Shown one piece after another: positions 27,928 through 41,000 of a stretch of DNA of 64,000 nt. The notes below the pieces were generated by a model, which had not been told where the DNA came from, made no database searches, and saw only the letters and a list, made by a program, of their open reading frames with translations. The stretch comes from Hanstruepera flava (GTDB lineage Bacteria; Bacteroidota; Bacteroidia; Flavobacteriales; Flavobacteriaceae). The DNA is taken from the NCBI RefSeq assembly GCF_023634025.1, contig NZ_JALJCW010000001.1, forward strand, positions 124,001 through 188,000. Direction: 5' to 3'. The stretch's first letter is position 1. Each line of letters begins with the position of its first letter. The translations under genes were made by a program, and so were the position numbers.

Positions 27928-28689
27928 TTACTTTTTGCGTCTTCGGGTTTTACGTTGTTTGTTGCGTACATATACGAGTTTAAAGCGTCCGTTACCACTT
28001 TCGCGTTTATCTATTTCGAAGTCTTTTATGGATTCGATTAGTGGTGTAAGCTTTTGAAAGCCGTAGTTACGGGAGTCGAAATTGGGTTGTTTTTTTTGCA
28101 GGAGGCTGCCCACATCGCCAAGAAATGCCCAGCCGTCATCGTCTGCGAGGTCTTGAATGGTATGGGCTATAAAGCGGATGTCTTTTGGGGTAATGGTATC
28201 GTAATTGGGTTTGGTTGTTTTTTTGGAGCCACTGGAGCCTGCGGTGTCATCATCGGCCTGTTGTTTTAATATTTCGATGTAAATAAACTTATCGCAGGCC
28301 ACTATAAAAGGGTCTGGTGTTTTTTTCTCGCCTATGCCATAGACTTGCATACCGGCTTCGCGCAAACGGGTTGCCAGGCGAGTAAAATCGGAATCGGAGG
28401 ATACGAGGCAAAAACCGTTAACCTTTTGGCTGTAGAGTATATCCATGGCATCGATAATCATGGCAGAGTCTGTGGCGTTTTTACCTTGGGTGTAGCCGTA
28501 TTGTTGTATGGGTGTTATGGCATTTTCCAACAGGACGTTTTTCCATTTGGTAAGGTGTGGTTTGGTCCAGTCGCCATAAATACGTTTTATGGTTGGGTTG
28601 CCGTATTTGGCTATTTCTTCCATCATTTCTTTTACGTAAGCTGATGGTATGTTGTCGCCATCGATAAGGACGGCCAGTTTAATATCCAT
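27928..28689 (-). CDS. NYN-domain (LabA-like) nuclease with C-terminal OST-HTH/LOTUS domain
   Basis: 253 residues. The N-terminal NYN/PIN fold is clear: LAVLIDGDNIP with acidic IDGDN, GKNATDSAMIIDAMD, and GFCLVSSDSDFTRLATRLREAG with the SSDSDF acidic cluster. A basic linker with GSSGSKK leads to an OST-HTH (LOTUS) domain near 170-240 (DDDGWAFLGDVGSLL...FDSRNYG), and the tail is strongly basic (RKTRRRKK). Such proteins are predicted RNases or RNA-binding regulators. First gene of the DinB/SUMF1/C45 operon. Confidence 0.88.
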   Translation of the reverse strand: MDIKLAVLIDGDNIPSAYVKEMMEEIAKYGNPTIKRIYGDWTKPHLTKWKNVLLENAITPIQQYGYTQGKNATDSAMIIDAMDILYSQKVNGFCLVSSDSDFTRLATRLREAGMQVYGIGEKKTPDPFIVACDKFIYIEILKQQADDDTAGSSGSKKTTKPNYDTITPKDIRFIAHTIQDLADDDGWAFLGDVGSLLQKKQPNFDSRNYGFQKLTPLIESIKDFEIDKRESGNGRFKLVYVRNKQRKTRRRKK

Positions 28690-28840: not shown

Positions 28841-29014
28841 GATGCATAACCGCATTTGCTTCGTCAGTCGCTACGCTCTTGTCGGCGGATTCGACTATCC
28901 CTCGACTATGCTCGAGACAGGCTAGAATCCACTCGAAATTGCACCCGCTTGTTTTTAACCGAAAATCATTATTTTTAATCCCTAAACTGATGGTTATAGG
29001 AGACCGTTGTACGC
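28841..29014 (+). repeat. attC-like site 1 (left end, with insertion)
   Basis: The right half matches sites 2 and 3 (AACCGAAAATCATTA..., GGTTATAGGAGACCGTTG) and the left half starts CATAACCGCATTTGCTT. Between them lie about 90 extra GC-richer bases (about 28862-28950) absent from sites 2 and 3. Arms ATAACC (28846-28851) and GGTTAT (28992-28997) can pair. The usual left AAC box is not recognisable, so the left end looks worn or truncated. Confidence 0.55.
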
Positions 29015-29031
29015 AAGCTAAAGAAATAGAT

Positions 29032-29508
29032 TTGATAAGGAAAATTGTAATAGGAGTTATAGCATTTATTTTTGGAATGGGACTTGGATTTTATTTTGAG
29101 GGCTACTTTCGCGGAATAATTCAAGATGTTTTTCGATTCTCAACCTCTGATAGAATCCAGTTTGTGGGAAAAAACATTTTAATATTTTCGGACAGAACTT
29201 TCGAATATATTTTCGGACTTGCTTTAATGATTTTTTCTTTGGCGAACATCGGTCTTAAACCAAAACGGATTTTAAAAAACATTATGCTTTTTCTGTTAAT
29301 CTTTGGAATTTCTATAATCGGAATTTCTGCTATCGATGGCAATATAAAAGTTGCAGAATGTACTGCCTGTGATAACGGCATTAGAAAAATACATTGGAAC
29401 GAAATAAATTACGGATTGATTATAAGCATAAGTGCTATTATTTCGATTGTTCCGAGTTTGATAAGAATAATAAAGCGAATAAAAAAGCCAGCTTACAACA
29501 TTGTATAA
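29032..29508 (+). CDS. Cassette 1: four-helix membrane protein of unknown function
   Basis: 158 residues if started at the TTG 29032, about 25 bases inside the cassette as in its neighbours. An in-frame ATG at 28990 lies inside the recombination site and is less likely. There are four hydrophobic helices (KIVIGVIAFIFGMGLGF, IFGLALMIFSLANIG, IMLFLLIFGISIIGISAI, YGLIISISAIISIVPSLI) and one CTAC pair of cysteines in a loop. The stop lies inside attC-like site 2. No family recognised. Confidence 0.6.
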   Translation: MIRKIVIGVIAFIFGMGLGFYFEGYFRGIIQDVFRFSTSDRIQFVGKNILIFSDRTFEYIFGLALMIFSLANIGLKPKRILKNIMLFLLIFGISIIGISAIDGNIKVAECTACDNGIRKIHWNEINYGLIISISAIISIVPSLIRIIKRIKKPAYNIV

Positions 29509-29577
29509 CCGTATTTGTTTAACCGAAATTATTAACTTTAAAACCGTAACTGGCGGTTATAAGAGACCGTTACAAGC
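29491..29577 (+). repeat. attC-like site 2
   Basis: 87 bases. Left box GCTTACAAC (29491-29499), right box GTTACAAGC (29569-29577), inner arms TATAACCG (29504-29511) and CGGTTATA (29554-29561), a perfect 8-bp stem. About 85% identical to site 3 by eye. Confidence 0.7.
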
Positions 29578-29592
29578 AAGATAAACCAAACA

Positions 29593-30159
29593 ATGAGCGA
29601 AAGTATATTATTTGAGATTTTAAATAAATCAAAAGAGAGCAAGGAAATTATCGGAATTTGGAAATATAATGACGATGACGGATTTTGGGCTGGATATGTG
29701 AAAGATTATAATGAAGAATTAGTTACAATCCAACACTATACTAAATATGGAAAATCGGACGGAATTATTATTGAGCGAATCGAAAACATAAAAAGTGTTG
29801 ACTTCGACGATGATTACGCAAAAGCAATGCAATGTCTTATTGACTATTCATCGGAACTTGATAAAGATGAAAAATTTGAATTGGAATTAAACGATGACGA
29901 AGAATGGCAAACTGGAATATTAAAACAACTCGAAGGAACTGACCGAATTGCTCGCTTGGAAATTAATGGTTCTGATTATTTTTCTGGATTCATTACCAAA
30001 CTATCTGAATCGGACTTGATTCTGCATTGCGTTGGGAAAATGGGAGAAGACGAAGGAACTGTAATTTACCGAATTGAAGATGTGACTGCTGTACGAGTTA
30101 ATGACATTGAAAATCGGAAAAGAGTAATGCTGTTTAAATGGAGAAAAGCTAGCTTATAA
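29593..30159 (+). CDS. Cassette 2: acidic protein with two internal beta-domain repeats
   Basis: 188 residues, no signal peptide, very acidic. The two halves resemble each other: residues 20-75 (IGIWKYNDDDGFWAGYVKDY...IERIENIKSVDFDDDY) and 105-175 (YFSGFITKLSESDLILHCVG...IYRIEDVTAVRVNDIE). Each looks like a small SH3- or Sm-like barrel. The ATG follows the GTT boundary by 24 bases and the stop overlaps the left box of site 3, so the gene fills the cassette. No named family recognised. Confidence 0.75.
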   Translation: MSESILFEILNKSKESKEIIGIWKYNDDDGFWAGYVKDYNEELVTIQHYTKYGKSDGIIIERIENIKSVDFDDDYAKAMQCLIDYSSELDKDEKFELELNDDEEWQTGILKQLEGTDRIARLEINGSDYFSGFITKLSESDLILHCVGKMGEDEGTVIYRIEDVTAVRVNDIENRKRVMLFKWRKASL

Positions 30160-30240
30160 CATTGTATAACCGTATTTGCTTAACCGAAAATCATTAAATT
30201 TAAAACTGTAACTGACGGTTATAGGAGACCGTTGGGCAAC
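30152..30240 (+). repeat. attC-like site 3
   Basis: 89 bases. Left box GCTTATAAC (30152-30160), right box GTTGGGCAAC (30231-30240; GTTGGGC fits the GTTRRRY consensus), inner arms TATAACCGT (30165-30173) and ACGGTTATA (30215-30223), a perfect 9-bp stem. Confidence 0.75.
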
Positions 30241-30242
30241 AT

Positions 30243-31082
30243 ATGAACAAACCTATGAAATACATATTATTACTCGGAATTCTGATTTCCTTTTCCGGAA
30301 CAAATCTTATTGCTCAATCGAATTCTGACAGTCTGAAACCAAAAATGAAAATGGTAAAGGAAGTTTTGTATAAACCTGAAAATGGTGAATTAAAAAGCCG
30401 AGAAAATCTATTTGAAACTGATTTAAGTTCTTATAAGGTTTATGATAAAAATGAGAAGATAATCGAATTGGGACAATATGAAATAGATGGCTCTATTTAC
30501 GAAACGACTTTTTATGAGAGAGATGAAAATGGCAAGGCATTAAAAACTATGCAAAAGAATTCTTCTGGAGAATTAAAAGGTTATTGGACTTACACATATG
30601 ATGACAACGATAATATGATTGAAGTTAAAACCTATGATTCAAGCGATAATTTGGTTAAAATACAATCAAACAAATACGATGAAAAAGGTAATAATGTAGA
30701 GATGATATTAAAAAGTCCTGAAAGTGAAAACGGCTGGAAATATCTCTATAAATATAATTTTGACAATAAATTGGTTGAGAGATTTAGATATAAACCAGAT
30801 GGGAGTTTAAAAGACCGTAGAACATATTCTTACGATAAAGACGGAAATGAGAATTTACAGTTCAAATTCAATCCTGATGGAAGTTTTATGAAGTTTGTTT
30901 CCGAATATGACGAAATGAATAATATGACTATTCAGAACTGGTTTAACGAACAAGACGAACAAACACACCAAACATCTTTTGAGTATGTATATGACGAAAA
31001 TGGAAATTGGATTTCTAAAAGGAGAAGTTCTAATGGAGAGTTAGGAATGGTTTGGGAAAGACAAATAGAATATTATGAATAA
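30243..31082 (+). CDS. Cassette 3: exported YD-repeat-like protein
   Basis: 279 residues. A signal peptide ends near IAQ (24). From about residue 100 on there are repeats of the YD type (YTYDDNDNMIEVKTYDSSDN, NKYDEKGNNVEMI, YSYDKDGNENLQFKFN, YVYDENGNWISKR), spaced about 25-35 residues, as in RHS-like and bacterial YD proteins. It is far too short for an RHS toxin and has no visible toxin tip, so it is probably a periplasmic beta-solenoid-like protein. The ATG is three bases after the right box of site 3. Confidence 0.75.
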   Translation: MNKPMKYILLLGILISFSGTNLIAQSNSDSLKPKMKMVKEVLYKPENGELKSRENLFETDLSSYKVYDKNEKIIELGQYEIDGSIYETTFYERDENGKALKTMQKNSSGELKGYWTYTYDDNDNMIEVKTYDSSDNLVKIQSNKYDEKGNNVEMILKSPESENGWKYLYKYNFDNKLVERFRYKPDGSLKDRRTYSYDKDGNENLQFKFNPDGSFMKFVSEYDEMNNMTIQNWFNEQDEQTHQTSFEYVYDENGNWISKRRSSNGELGMVWERQIEYYE

Positions 31083-31090
31083 AAAAACAC

Positions 31091-31225
31091 GTTGCACAAC
31101 AACGTGTATAGCTCATTGCGGCTGAATTCCTAATCGGAATTCATTGCAATTTGCTATCTTTCGGTTACGGCGGAAAATCATAGCTGATTTCCCGCAACAA
31201 GCCATACACAAAACCGTTGAATCAC
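31091..31225 (+). repeat. attC-like site 4
   Basis: 135 bases. Left box GTTGCACAAC (31091-31100), right box GTTGAATCAC (31216-31225), inner arms GTGTATAGC near 31104-31112 and GCCATACAC at 31201-31209 (8/9). It contains the 20-base stretch at 31142-31161 that recurs exactly at 35482-35501. Confidence 0.65.
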
Positions 31226-31283
31226 ATTCAGCTAAAGCTGACCAAAGTTACTACGTGCTGCGCACTCCCGTCCCTTTGGATAT
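31226..31283 (+). other. Gene-less cassette 4
   Basis: The bases between two perfectly complementary cassette ends (GTTGAATCAC at 31216-31225 and GTGATTCAAC at 31284-31293) carry no open frame. They hold a short hairpin (TCAGC/GCTGA) and a GC-richer stretch. Gene-less cassettes are known in integrons; it may carry a promoter or be a decayed cassette. Confidence 0.45.
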
Positions 31284-31500
31284 GTGATTCAACGACAGCG
31301 TTATGCCAAATGGCGCACGACGCGGGAATCTTGGGGATTGTACTAATTACAGCTTCCGCTGCCCATCGAGGGAAAACGTGAACCAACTGCCATTATACGC
31401 AATTTGTTTACGTTTACTCTGTATTTATAAAAATTAGCGAATAAATTCGCTATTTTTAAAATCCAAAACGTAACTACGCATAACGCTGTCGTTGGCTACA
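31284..31500 (+). repeat. attC-like site 5 (long, perfect 13-bp arms)
   Basis: 217 bases, longer than usual attC sites. Left box GTGATTCAAC (31284-31293), right box GTTGGCTACA (31491-31500), inner arms GACAGCGTTATGC (31294-31306) and GCATAACGCTGTC (31478-31490), perfectly complementary. With the flanking AAC/GTT this makes a 16-bp stem. A terminator-like hairpin lies inside at 31435-31452. Confidence 0.65.
31435..31452. terminator. Hairpin inside attC-like site 5
   Basis: TAGCGAAT / ATTCGCTA arms with a 2-base centre. T-rich DNA follows on the plus strand and A-rich DNA precedes it. It could stop cassette read-through. Confidence 0.4.
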
Positions 31501-31502
31501 AT

Positions 31503-32084
31503 ATGAAAAGAACTCGCAGAAATAATCAAAAACGAAATCGATATTCGATTTTATTCCCGATTTTGACAATTGTCGGAATCGGAATTATTACTGCATTTGT
31601 GAGCAACTACGAACCGAATTGGAGTTATAATTGGAACGGAATTAGAACAGAAATAAAAGACTCTATACAGGTCGCAGAATTACGTGGAATTACAAGTGGA
31701 GTTGGCGGAATGGGAGTTTCAACGAAAAGCGAAGTTGACAGAAGACGATGGATTATGAGAAACGCTACGGAATCTGAACTTCTAAAACTGACTGAATACC
31801 CAAATGGAACTGTAAAAGCGATTGCATACGAGGGACTTTTGAGAAAAAGAGAATTTGCCGATAGAACTGAATTGACCTTGAGAGCAATTCAAGACACAAC
31901 ATATATGGTCGACTATCAATCAGGTTGTATTGGTTGGAATAGAGAAATCGGAGAATATTTAGTTCAAGATGTGCTTATGATTGACGACCAAATCCCACCA
32001 TTTCCACCTGAAATGCAAACTGAATTTGGACTGACTGAAATAGATAAAGAAAAAATATTATCGGAATACAAAAAACGTCCGTAA
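31503..32084 (+). CDS. Cassette 5: membrane-anchored protein of unknown function
   Basis: 193 residues. A basic start (MKRTRRNNQKRNRY) precedes one membrane helix (SILFPILTIVGIGIITAFV), so the rest (about 40-193) is outside the cytoplasm. That domain has a HEAT-like helical segment (ATESELLKLTEYPNGTVKAI, AYEGLLRKREF) also seen in other Bacteroidota hypothetical proteins. The ATG is three bases after the right box of site 5. The complementary cassette end is at 32104-32113, where the array stops without a complete next site. Confidence 0.7.
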   Translation: MKRTRRNNQKRNRYSILFPILTIVGIGIITAFVSNYEPNWSYNWNGIRTEIKDSIQVAELRGITSGVGGMGVSTKSEVDRRRWIMRNATESELLKLTEYPNGTVKAIAYEGLLRKREFADRTELTLRAIQDTTYMVDYQSGCIGWNREIGEYLVQDVLMIDDQIPPFPPEMQTEFGLTEIDKEKILSEYKKRP

Positions 32085-32149
32085 AGAGAATACTAAAAAA
32101 TACTGTAGCCAACAAAGTACTGTGGTAAAAAACAACCTAATAACCAACA

Positions 32150-32205: not shown

Positions 32206-32763
32206 TTAGAACTGTAAGTCTGCTATGATGTCGAATTCATCATAGATTACCTTGTCCTGTAAGTTATCGAAAAAGCTACTAGATCTATAACGTACATCGT
32301 ACTTACTACGGTCTATTTTTAGGTTTGCCGTGGCTTTACTACCGTAAACAGACATGGTAAATGTTACTGGATGCGTGGTGTTTTTTATGGTTAAATCTCC
32401 TATAACTTCGTAGGCATTTTTACCTGTAGCTTTAACTTCAGTAAAAACTAATTGTGACGTTGGGTATTTTTCAACTCCGAAGAAATCGTCTGATTTTAAG
32501 TGACCGTCTAGTTTCCCTTTGTACTCTCCGGATAAGTCTGTAGAACCAATAGTGGTCATATCCATTACAAAACTTCCACCTGTTAAGGTTTCGCCATTAA
32601 ACACCAGATTACCTGATTTAATGGCTATGGTACCCTCATGTGAGCCCGTTACTTTGTAGCCTTTCCACTGTACTTGGCTATCGTCTTTTTTGATGTCTTT
32701 TTTTTGAGCATTCATAGTTGTGAATGTTGCGAATGCAACCATAATGAGTGTTAATCGTTTCAT
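32206..32763 (-). CDS. yceI: YceI-family exported lipid-binding protein
   Basis: 185 residues from the ATG at 32763. This start gives a signal peptide (MKRLTLIMVAFATFTTMNA); an extended frame upstream crosses the promoter. The YceI pattern is complete: DDSQVQWKGYKVTGSHEGTI, GGSFVMDMTTIGSTDLSG, HLKSDDFFGVEKYP and ATANLKIDRSKYDVRY. These are lipocalin-like barrels that bind polyprenyl lipids in the periplasm. A 20-bp palindrome and a Crp/Fnr gene lie just upstream. Confidence 0.9.
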   Translation of the reverse strand: MKRLTLIMVAFATFTTMNAQKKDIKKDDSQVQWKGYKVTGSHEGTIAIKSGNLVFNGETLTGGSFVMDMTTIGSTDLSGEYKGKLDGHLKSDDFFGVEKYPTSQLVFTEVKATGKNAYEVIGDLTIKNTTHPVTFTMSVYGSKATANLKIDRSKYDVRYRSSSFFDNLQDKVIYDEFDIIADLQF

Positions 32764-32800
32764 TGTATTTAAATTATTTAGTGTATTTAATTTTACACTA

Positions 32801-32808
32801 CAAAGTTG
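32801..32808 (-). promoter_or_regulatory. -7 box of yceI
   Basis: CAACTTTG on the minus strand, one base from TAnnTTTG, about 38 bases before the ATG. The palindrome at 32851-32870 is centred near -63 from the implied start. Confidence 0.4.
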
Positions 32809-32850
32809 CCACAAGTACATGGTTTAAAAAATGAACTAGTTTATGAAATG

Positions 32851-34349: not shown

Positions 34350-34421
34350 GGTAGAGTAAGTAAAATTGAGTAGATTTGAAAACCTTATTCGCCTATGTAG
34401 GTGGATATTATTAACGTTTTA

Positions 34422-34460
34422 AAATAAACACAATGGGAATACACGCCATTGTGTTTATTT
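34422..34460. repeat. Perfect 14-bp inverted repeat
   Basis: AAATAAACACAATG (34422-34435) and CATTGTGTTTATTT (34447-34460), loop 11 bases. It lies between the amidase and CPBP genes. It could be a weak terminator (T-rich right side) or an operator. It is followed at once by GTTGGCAAC (34465-34473), which resembles a cassette boundary. Confidence 0.5.
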
Positions 34461-34529
34461 GATTGTTGGCAACAATGTAACAAAAATACTACCCTATCGT
34501 CTTGCTAAAATAAACCAAACCTAAACCAA

Positions 34530-39281: not shown

Positions 39282-41000
39282 CTATTCTATACGCTTTGCT
39301 GGCATATTTTGGCCATTTTGATGCAAGGTTAAACTATCTATTTTGCCCTTGTCATTAGCTTTAAAGGTTACTTGTGCCTCAACCACCTTTAAATAAAACT
39401 TATTATATGCCGATGCAAACAACTCAAATTGTGGCTGACCAGTAGCTTGAGCAAATAATTGTTTTTCTTGGCGAGTAACTGTAATAATAAATCCAGGTTG
39501 TAATTCATACTGGCCACAGTAAGTGTCCAACACATTTTCGGGCACCTCAACATCAGTAACTAGTTCTGATTTAGCAACGCCTAAATTTAAAAGAACGGTT
39601 TTGGCATTATCATTTGCAGGATTTAATTCCAAGGATTTCTTGTAATTGGTAATAGCCTGTGTGGTATCACCCACTTTTAAATAGCCTTCACCCAATGAAT
39701 CATAAGGATTGGAAGCTTTTGGGAATGAAGTTACATTCAATTTAAATAGCTCTAAAGCAATCGTATTATGCCCTTCTGATAGATACTTATAACCCAAAGT
39801 GTTTAATTGACTTTCATCAAATTTATAGGCATCCGATTGTTCCGTCTTTAATTGCTGATACAGTTTTATAGCTGATTTAATACTATTAGCCTCAATTTCT
39901 TTATTAATTACGGTTGCAATAGAAGGTTTTGGTACTTCCAATGGTCTTGGGTCGCCCAATAATTTCATACCTAAACGACCTATATCAGTATCGGCATTAC
40001 CTAAAACCACAACACCTTTTTGTGTTCCTTCTATAAAACCAGTGAATGATTTATAACCACCTGTTGCACCATTATGCCAGATTATGGTATCATCACCGTT
40101 TTGGGCATAATGCCAACCTAAACCAATTTTAAATTGATCAGTTTGCTTTTCATAAGCTACCTGTTGACTCAATGTCATGGCTTCATATATATTCGGTTTT
40201 AACACACCCATATTGGCCATTAAAAACTTCACCATATCTTCAGTTGTCGAACGAATACCTCCTGCTCCAGCCAAGCCTGTTATATCCCAATTAGACACTT
40301 CAACACCTTGTGCATGGGGCTTTGCTAAATGGTTTTTCATACTATCGGTTAATGCCAACCTGGTACTAATCATGTTGCAAGGATGCGCTATTTTTTCAAT
40401 TAATAGGGTTTCATAGCTTTTACCCGTATGTAATTCCAAAATATGCCCCAATAAGCCCATGGCGTAATTAGAATACTCATAATCCGAACCAATATCCCGA
40501 GTTAATTCATAGGAAGACATAAATTCATAAATGTGTTCTGGTGTGTAATCCACATAAGGATTTCTTGGGTCTCTAGGATTAAAATTATCAGGCATTCTGG
40601 GCAATGCCGATGTATGTGTAGCTAAATCCAACAAGGTGATTTCTCTTCCATTACGCGTCGGGACCTTAACAGTATTTGGCAGATAGTTTACAATGGGATC
40701 CGATAGTTTCATACTGCCTTTCAAAACTTCATCCGCCAACATGATACAGGTAAAAACTTTAGAGATAGAACCTATTTCATAAACAGTATGCTCATTTACT
40801 GGAATGTTATGTTTTAAATCGGTTGTGCCATAACTAAAAAAATCAACTTTATCGCCTTCCACATAAGCTATGGAAATTCCAACATTCTCACCAGCCTCAA
40901 CTCTGGCTTGAATATTTTCTTTTATGGCATCTGGTATTTGAACTTGAGAAATTGCATGAACACTTAATAAAAGTAATAGACAGCTAACTATATATTTCAT
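39282..41000 (-). CDS. Exported serine hydrolase (class C beta-lactamase fold) with TPRs
   Basis: 572 residues with a signal peptide (1-18). Catalytic motifs are intact: S-I-S-K in SISKVFTC, Y-S-N in YEYSNYAMG and HNG in IIWHNGATGG. Residues 365-470 are TPR-like (LELFKLNVTSFPKASNPYDSLGEGYL), and a beta-rich end domain follows (ENVLDTYCGQYELQPGFIITV), typical of the DUF3471-type tail. Likely a periplasmic peptidase or esterase. Same architecture as the gene at 8270-9742 plus the extra end domain. Confidence 0.88.
   Translation of the reverse strand: MKYIVSCLLLLLSVHAISQVQIPDAIKENIQARVEAGENVGISIAYVEGDKVDFFSYGTTDLKHNIPVNEHTVYEIGSISKVFTCIMLADEVLKGSMKLSDPIVNYLPNTVKVPTRNGREITLLDLATHTSALPRMPDNFNPRDPRNPYVDYTPEHIYEFMSSYELTRDIGSDYEYSNYAMGLLGHILELHTGKSYETLLIEKIAHPCNMISTRLALTDSMKNHLAKPHAQGVEVSNWDITGLAGAGGIRSTTEDMVKFLMANMGVLKPNIYEAMTLSQQVAYEKQTDQFKIGLGWHYAQNGDDTIIWHNGATGGYKSFTGFIEGTQKGVVVLGNADTDIGRLGMKLLGDPRPLEVPKPSIATVINKEIEANSIKSAIKLYQQLKTEQSDAYKFDESQLNTLGYKYLSEGHNTIALELFKLNVTSFPKASNPYDSLGEGYLKVGDTTQAITNYKKSLELNPANDNAKTVLLNLGVAKSELVTDVEVPENVLDTYCGQYELQPGFIITVTRQEKQLFAQATGQPQFELFASAYNKFYLKVVEAQVTFKANDKGKIDSLTLHQNGQNMPAKRIE

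Follow-up and report, generated by a model that had tools for sequence, protein, structure and literature searches.

How a row of integron-type gene cassettes could have been assembled with no integron integrase beside it is the question raised by a 64,000-nucleotide stretch of the genome of Hanstruepera flava (contig NZ_JALJCW010000001.1, positions 124,001 to 188,000; hereafter the window), in which five such cassettes form an array. Integrons capture genes and are known for their part in the spread of resistance genes. We consider it likely (with a probability of about 0.85, judged from sequence comparison) that these cassettes are products of integron-type recombination by a tyrosine recombinase that lacks the insertion specific to the integron integrase IntI. 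Given that the recombinases heading related arrays lack this insertion and score under the cut-off of the IntI model TIGR02249, the system is not an IntI integron: in its working it resembles an integron, but it fails two tests by which the IntI family is defined. The window array itself is integrase-less, resembling the clusters of attC sites lacking integrases (CALINs), and is not the remnant of a classical IntI integron.

The cassette array of the window and its counterparts in the same genome

The five cassettes point in one direction, and the start of each is complementary to its own end, as the initial annotation had described (8/9, 8/9, 9/10, 10/10 and 10/10 matches, values that we reproduced). 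Counted over ten bases each (Table 1), own starts and ends pair at 45 of 50 positions, which is the top value among all 120 start-end pairings in the array; the boxes that abut inside it match at 7, 3, 6 and 5 of 10 positions. The remark that boxes of 10 bases are unusual had to be given up, given that own-end identity over about ten bases is also seen at several sites beside true IntI genes; the unusual feature is that the own-end match continues to 14 bases, interrupted by one fixed mismatch at position 11. In cassette 5, 13 of the first 14 bases match, the sole mismatch being at this position.

Sites were also sought with a covariance model derived from 59 sites in other genomes, which recognizes sites 1 to 3 and part of site 4 of the array, and site 0 weakly (Table 1); a scan of the window against Rfam gave no match. 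Both ends of the array are truncated, the first site being without its left box and the last without its right half. For cassette 4, two positions of the closing box are possible, namely 31293 (10/10, without A/G at position 11) and 31387 (8/10, with A/G), of which the model prefers the latter; the outer boundaries of the cassette are the same in both cases. This cassette, which has no open reading frame (ORF) of at least 60 amino acids (aa) and yet recurs in the genome, might carry a promoter or another control element.

No recombinase was detected by tblastn beside the array (in the window and in loci L030-L042), the nearest ones being located on other contigs, and sites 1 to 4 thus correspond to a CALIN in the usual sense of at least two attC sites with no integrase nearby. 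Of the original proposal of a flavobacterial CALIN, the integron-type cassettes and the local absence of an integrase are borne out, but arrays headed by recombinases, which are not of the IntI type, are present on other contigs. On contig C4, an attI-like stretch lies between the gene for a 393-aa tyrosine recombinase and the downstream cassettes, which run in the same direction; a gene for a 375-aa tyrosine recombinase heads an array of the same layout on contig C3, and contig C9 (9.4 kb) consists of an array in which our detector found nine cassettes. A DNA search with the window array gave 21 matches in its own genome, itself included, and the site model gave at least 33 at E≤0.01 (150 of 2994 candidates scored). 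Given these arrays and site matches, the window array is one of several clusters in this genome. The first cassette behind the C3 recombinase (L037:11676-12127) carries an ORF that runs against the cassette direction.

A fixed gene order in relatives had been named in the initial annotation as the finding that would speak against cassettes; cassettes 4 and 2 were found with differing neighbours. Next to the C4 recombinase, cassette 4 has a 100% identical copy over exactly its positions 1-275 (275 bp), and the end of contig C9 carries another copy of the first 91 bp, so that this cassette occupies three places in the genome with three different left neighbours (a site, the attI-like stretch and another site) and two visible right neighbours, which also differ. 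Cassette 2 is found from its first base onwards in Psychroserpens (91% identity), a Winogradskyella metagenome-assembled genome (97%), Subsaxibacter (93%) and Aquimarina (84%); its left boundary is identical in L030, L031, L032 and L033, and in L030 and L033 it lies among other cassettes. Four cassette pairs are common to different genomes among 316 cassettes of other loci. In phage records, cassette 2 had no match.

Table 1. Coordinates of the cassette array and its flanking genes in the window; own-end matches are counted over ten bases, and model matches refer to the covariance model of the sites
Feature	Coordinates	Strand	Own-end matches	Closing box ends at	Content	Model match of the site
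Site 0	28841..29005	+			Recombination site lacking its left box (right part, L'' to G); truncated array start; 86% identity (157 nt) to a contig C5 site	28845-29011, minus, weak (E 0.17)
Cassette 1	29006..29568	+	8	29499	Small membrane-protein-like ORF ending at 29508 (start uncertain), no Pfam match; site 1 at about 29490-29578	29494-29574, minus (E 1.5e-6)
Cassette 2	29569..30230	+	8	30160	ORF 29593-30159 (188 aa), no Pfam match; site 2 at about 30151-30240	30155-30236, minus (E 7e-7)
Cassette 3	30231..31215	+	9	31100	ORF 30243-31082 (279 aa), RHS-repeat-like, PF05593 at 27 bits (cut-off 22); site 3 at about 31091-31225	31095-31221, minus (E 4e-22)
Cassette 4	31216..31490	+	10	31293 (or 31387, see text)	No ORF of at least 60 aa; mostly the long site 4	Partial, minus (E 7e-5)
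Cassette 5	31491..32113	+	10	32113	ORF 31503-32084 (193 aa), no Pfam match; closing site cut off past the left box	
NYN/OST-HTH protein gene	27928..28689	-			Left flank, chromosomal, outside the array; PF01936 at 143 bits	
YceI-like protein gene	32206..32820	-			Right flank, chromosomal, outside the array; PF04264 at 94.6 bits	

Array-heading recombinases and the putative attI site

Relatives of the C4 protein (E≤1e-40) are present in 126 of the 199 genomes sampled from the family and in 146 of 295 genomes of the class. Among 80 recombinase loci of the family that were fetched, 13 end within 300 nucleotides (nt) and are uninformative, and 64 have at least 1 kb of downstream DNA. At least one linked cassette was found by the first test in 58 of these 64 loci, and strict cassettes (linked cassettes with A/G at position 11 and agreement at two of positions 12-14) in 56. 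Altogether, the downstream DNA (543 kb) contains 267 linked and 225 strict cassettes; the respective numbers are 5 and 0 for the other strand, 18 and 0 for the reversed and 8 and 0 for the block-shuffled sequence, 2 and 0 for the window outside the array, 2 and 0 for the Xer loci of the same genome (which has two other Xer-like genes besides the array-heading recombinases), and 43 and 0 for 20 loci with true IntI. Outside the family, 14 of 20 loci from the class have at least one linked cassette downstream. The site model (E≤1e-6) found matches in all 20 genomes chosen for the presence of the recombinase, with a median of 25.5 and a maximum of 135, the large counts being lower bounds and ten of these genomes having supplied sites to the model. 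Four of the 20 genomes listed have more than 100 matches each, the scale of Vibrio superintegrons, and dozens lie in a single chromosomal stretch of genome G113 (C1:168000-239000). The closed genome G071 has 34 matches and no close match to the recombinase, i.e., a large array without an evident integrase.

The recombinases of this family differ from IntI. In 78 of 78 of them, 63-64 residues separate the catalytic K and H, compared to 105 in 20 of 20 true IntI (of the 80, four were left out because of insufficient length, and the IntI rows were cut to the model match, so that the N-termini are not comparable); the IntI-specific insertion is missing in all 78. The catalytic residues R, K, H, R, H and Y are invariant in 55 aligned members. 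Against TIGR02249, C4 scores 214 and C3 197 bits, both under the cut-off of 265 bits; the best curated family is NF040815 (XerA, 'site-specific tyrosine recombinase/integron integrase'), which C3 passes (242 against 220) and C4 narrowly fails (215). Between 88 and 116 residues precede the SAM-like domain, and this N-terminal stretch (residues 1-95; L036 and relatives) has a conserved F and W. It matches PF07443 (HARP) in 2 of 59 members (best E 8e-5) and DUF5710 in 7 of 59 (best E 0.002), and among solved structures the best match in a profile search had an E of only 0.018; the HARP resemblance is a lead only. In the phylogenetic tree, the IntI sequences group together in a single clade (100/100), to which the C4-like group is adjacent (90/84); the C3-like group branches outside, and monophyly of the family recombinases is not rejected (p 0.30), a topology that would fit IntI either as nested within the recombinase family or as its sister.

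The first cassette lies at a fixed range past the recombinase stop codon. The motif TATAAC occurs within 12 nt before the first cassette in 24 of 47 loci in which this cassette is clear, compared to 24 of 8135 other GTT in the same loci, and C3-like loci have other, palindromic sequences at this place. Together with whole-unit differences at one point in Polaribacter phage Freya, position and motif point to a putative attI next to the recombinase gene. Freya (L340-L354), which is a true phage, is represented by ten isolates with circular records of 44.0-48.9 kb (PMC8776804); neither 'integron' nor 'cassette' occurs in the available part of that article. It encodes a 272-aa integrase with 62 residues from K to H in which the catalytic residues are kept. 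The seven of the ten sibling isolates that were compared are identical over 47 nt up to one junction beside the integrase and then differ in the first unit: F1 has u8, F2 u6-u8, F5 u5-u8, F6 x plus u5-u8, F9 u2-u8 and F10 u1-u8. The differences at this point amount to 307 (F9/F10), 472 (F5/F6), 842 (F1/F2) and 902 nt (F2/F5). The sole difference between F8 and F10 lies inside the array, where F8 is without u5, a unit of 902 nt, which fits internal excision. The changes begin at boundaries of the G/TT type, and the own ends match at 9/10 and extend to 14 in all but one of the four inserts. Given that sibling isolates from one study differ by whole cassettes, cassette turnover would become observable in a laboratory host.

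A family-profile search of viral contigs gave 80 loci of more distant recombinases, of which 45 contain a total of 171 strict cassettes; none of these is on the same strand as the recombinase, and 166 lie beyond its 5' end. These contigs had been intended as a negative control for Xer-like recombinases and failed as such. Ten proteins from two of these contigs gave replication-type and other PHROG matches and no terminase, portal or capsid match, and we do not claim that the contigs are viral.

Strand-coded structure of the recombination sites

Among the 316 cassettes, which were preselected on own ends agreeing at 9 of positions 1-10 so that only positions 11-14 are independent of the selection, own-end agreement is 97-100% at positions 4-9, 78% at position 10 and 2% at position 11, then 86, 90 and 81% at positions 12-14, with background values beyond. 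Boxes of abutting neighbours agree about as well as random pairs. The core consensus GTTRRRY is present at only 16 of the 316 cassette starts, and GTTR at 303.

The two strands of the stem are not equivalent. At outer-arm positions 11-14, the top strand has 229 A.C and one G.T; in the inner arm (176 sites with 3/6 spacing), the counts on the top strand are 384 A.C against 14 G.T at positions 1-16 and 80 against 65 at positions 17-22. An A.C on the top strand is a G.T on the bottom strand, and therefore the bottom strand keeps the stem. With the own ends joined, as in a circle, the bottom strand folds more stably in all 120 sites tried (of 248), and in the array form in 111 of 120; in these folding predictions the bottom strand is favoured. 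RNAalifold analysis of 59 sites yielded 18 consensus pairs, 12 of them with compensated double changes, and two nearly fixed G-U pairs; there is no conserved single-base bulge in the inner arm, where the spacers are unequal (3 and 6 nt) and unpaired bases hence exist. The few classical sites from true-IntI loci that were compared have single-base bulges and show little strand difference.

The following mechanism would be consistent with these features. The two ends of a cassette would join in a circle, the bottom strand of which would fold into one long hairpin; an Xer-like tyrosine recombinase without the IntI insertion would bind this hairpin and join it to the short attI by its own gene, cutting between G and TT. 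The strand would be chosen by G.T wobbles at fixed stem positions, which are A.C mismatches on the other strand, together with the spacer of 3 against 6 nt, instead of the extrahelical bases that are read by the IntI insertion in classical sites. Once the cassette is in an array, its boxes would face the unrelated boxes of its neighbours, and this form would pair less well. The window array would then be an outlying, truncated cluster, the cassettes of which were placed at a distance by the C4 or C3 recombinase, or which lost its integrase. Central to this mechanism, we infer a joint absence of the IntI insertion and of conserved bulges in the inner arm; for this reason the system would be a natural comparison for the open question of how the recombinogenic strand is chosen.

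Alternative explanations, known systems and genomic context

Three other explanations have to be weighed against recombination by a recombinase without the IntI insertion. That an ordinary IntI placed the cassettes and was later lost or acted from elsewhere, leaving a degraded classical integron, appears unlikely. True IntI above the TIGR02249 cut-off does exist in 105 of 395 genomes of the GTDB phylum (among the matching rows, a single one belongs to this class and none to this family), but none of the 199 family genomes has one (control genomes were also silent in that search; the model did match in the phylum search), and the recombinases that head the arrays lack the insertion without exception. 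The logic of the sites is the same in both systems (GTT core, hairpin, bottom strand), but the 20 true-IntI loci gave no strict cassettes and their sites show single-base bulges. A point in favour of IntI is Polaribacter phage P12002L, for which a CALIN has been reported in which class 1 IntI1 recombined the bottom strand of attC2 and not the top strand (PMC9892861). Our model finds five sites in this phage, which may include attC1 and attC2.

Still less probable is a set of separate transposon-like elements with terminal inverted repeats that came to lie in tandem by chance: the inverted ends of 14 nt in each unit and the copies of units at several places are what such elements would show, but the units abut without spacers, in one direction and at a fixed distance from a tyrosine recombinase, one arm of the site pairs only via a long internal hairpin with strand-coded wobbles, and the Freya units change at one point. 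A third possibility, that the sites are ordinary terminators or palindromes that arose by chance between small genes with no relation to each other, appears very improbable. It could account for the position of the sites between genes and for the terminator-like appearance of some, but would hardly explain why own pairing is the best of the 120 or why 225 strict links face none in three controls.

The explanation that we prefer, in which a recombinase devoid of the IntI insertion carries out integron-type recombination, also has observations weighing against it. In addition to the preselection of the cassettes on their own ends, only a handful of classical sites was compared with those of Bacteroidota, and the unequal spacers could still serve as extrahelical bases. 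Strict cassettes are missing from 8 of the 64 recombinase loci, and 11 of 20 genomes without a close recombinase have site-model matches (E≤1e-6; median 2.5, maximum 37), implying that, as in the case of CALINs, an array often occurs with no close recombinase in the genome. The Freya integrase is only distantly related and has no N-terminal extension, the comparison covers only seven of the ten isolates, the 307-nt unit has 9/10 own ends with no extension to 14, and the nested sets fit insertion at attI and loss from attI alike. In Cellulophaga phage Ingeline, a related integrase is present, and none of its candidate sites is convincing.

Compared with the IntI integrons (classes 1-5 and sedentary chromosomal ones), the likeness extends to tandem one-way cassettes, the GTT core, own-end complementarity, the bottom-strand hairpin, an attI beside a tyrosine recombinase, changes at attI, and large arrays in some genomes (at least 135 model matches). 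The differences lie in the shorter K-H distance (63-64 and not 105 residues) and the extra N-terminal stretch of the recombinase, in the rarity of GTTRRRY, in stem wobbles that would take the place of conserved extrahelical inner-arm bases, and in the recombinase gene pointing toward the cassettes in the bacterial layout. CALINs likewise have several sites with no integrase beside them, as the window array has, but its sites are of another type. In the phage integrons and CALINs described in the available text of PMC9892861, no native recombinase is named, unlike in the arrays reported here. Xer proteins resolve chromosome dimers (PMC8138268), whereas the recombinases considered here head cassette arrays, an association that argues for another role. 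The IntI insertion is called essential in the same source and yet not fully conserved in its integron-like subgroup.

According to the available text of PMC9024848, surveys define integrons by IntI with the insertion, very few are reported in Bacteroidetes, and IntegronFinder 2.0 names one complete integron in Bacteroidetes proper, in Salinibacter ruber. No account of a system such as the present one was found in the open text of PubMed Central (bioRxiv and subscription journals were outside this search). Proteins of this kind are named 'site-specific tyrosine recombinase/integron integrase' by NCBI, so their kinship to integron integrases has already been noted in annotation. We lean, with a little more than even confidence, toward a broader scenario in which an IntI-independent integron lineage extends through the class Bacteroidia and phages, with arrays of Vibrio size, strand polarity coded in G.T wobbles and no IntI insertion, IntI being its sister or offshoot. 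If so, the IntI insertion would have been added later as a refinement and would not be the defining feature of an integron, and many Flavobacteriaceae and other Bacteroidia would carry integron systems missed by surveys, some with more than 100 sites. In one genome (G203, L186), an end pair of the Bacteroidota type, with A/G at position 11, lies about 7 kb from a true IntI gene, so that this genome may hold both systems.

The longest ORF runs along the cassette direction in 271 of the 316 cassettes and against it in 6, and 39 have no ORF of 60 aa. The cargo is varied according to a Pfam and PADLOC scan of 120 of the 277 ORF-bearing cassettes: it includes cation efflux proteins, heavy-metal domains, superoxide dismutase, methylases, and nSTAND and SLATT proteins, and among the 25 Pfam families shown none has more than two members.

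Outside the array, the site model has two matches in the window, both on the plus strand, at 34410-34470 (E 2.9e-5) and 39591-39666 (E 0.003); the former is an intergenic hairpin with AAC...GTT ends that could be either a solitary site or a terminator. A clean empty site between the NYN and YceI flanks was sought in relatives and not found. Within the genus, L302 has NYN and YceI 7.9 kb apart, with other genes between them and no cassette by the detector, and L301 has no cassette at these flanks. In a third genome of the genus (G832, L300), which has no YceI within 11.5 kb, the NYN side carries a restriction-modification pair (a cytosine methylase with a MvaI/BcnI-type restriction enzyme) together with two cassettes, one of the DUF6630 type and one a copy of cassette 4 at 85% identity. 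In another genus (L303/L100), NYN has a recombinase with cassettes as a neighbour at a distance of about 2.2 kb.

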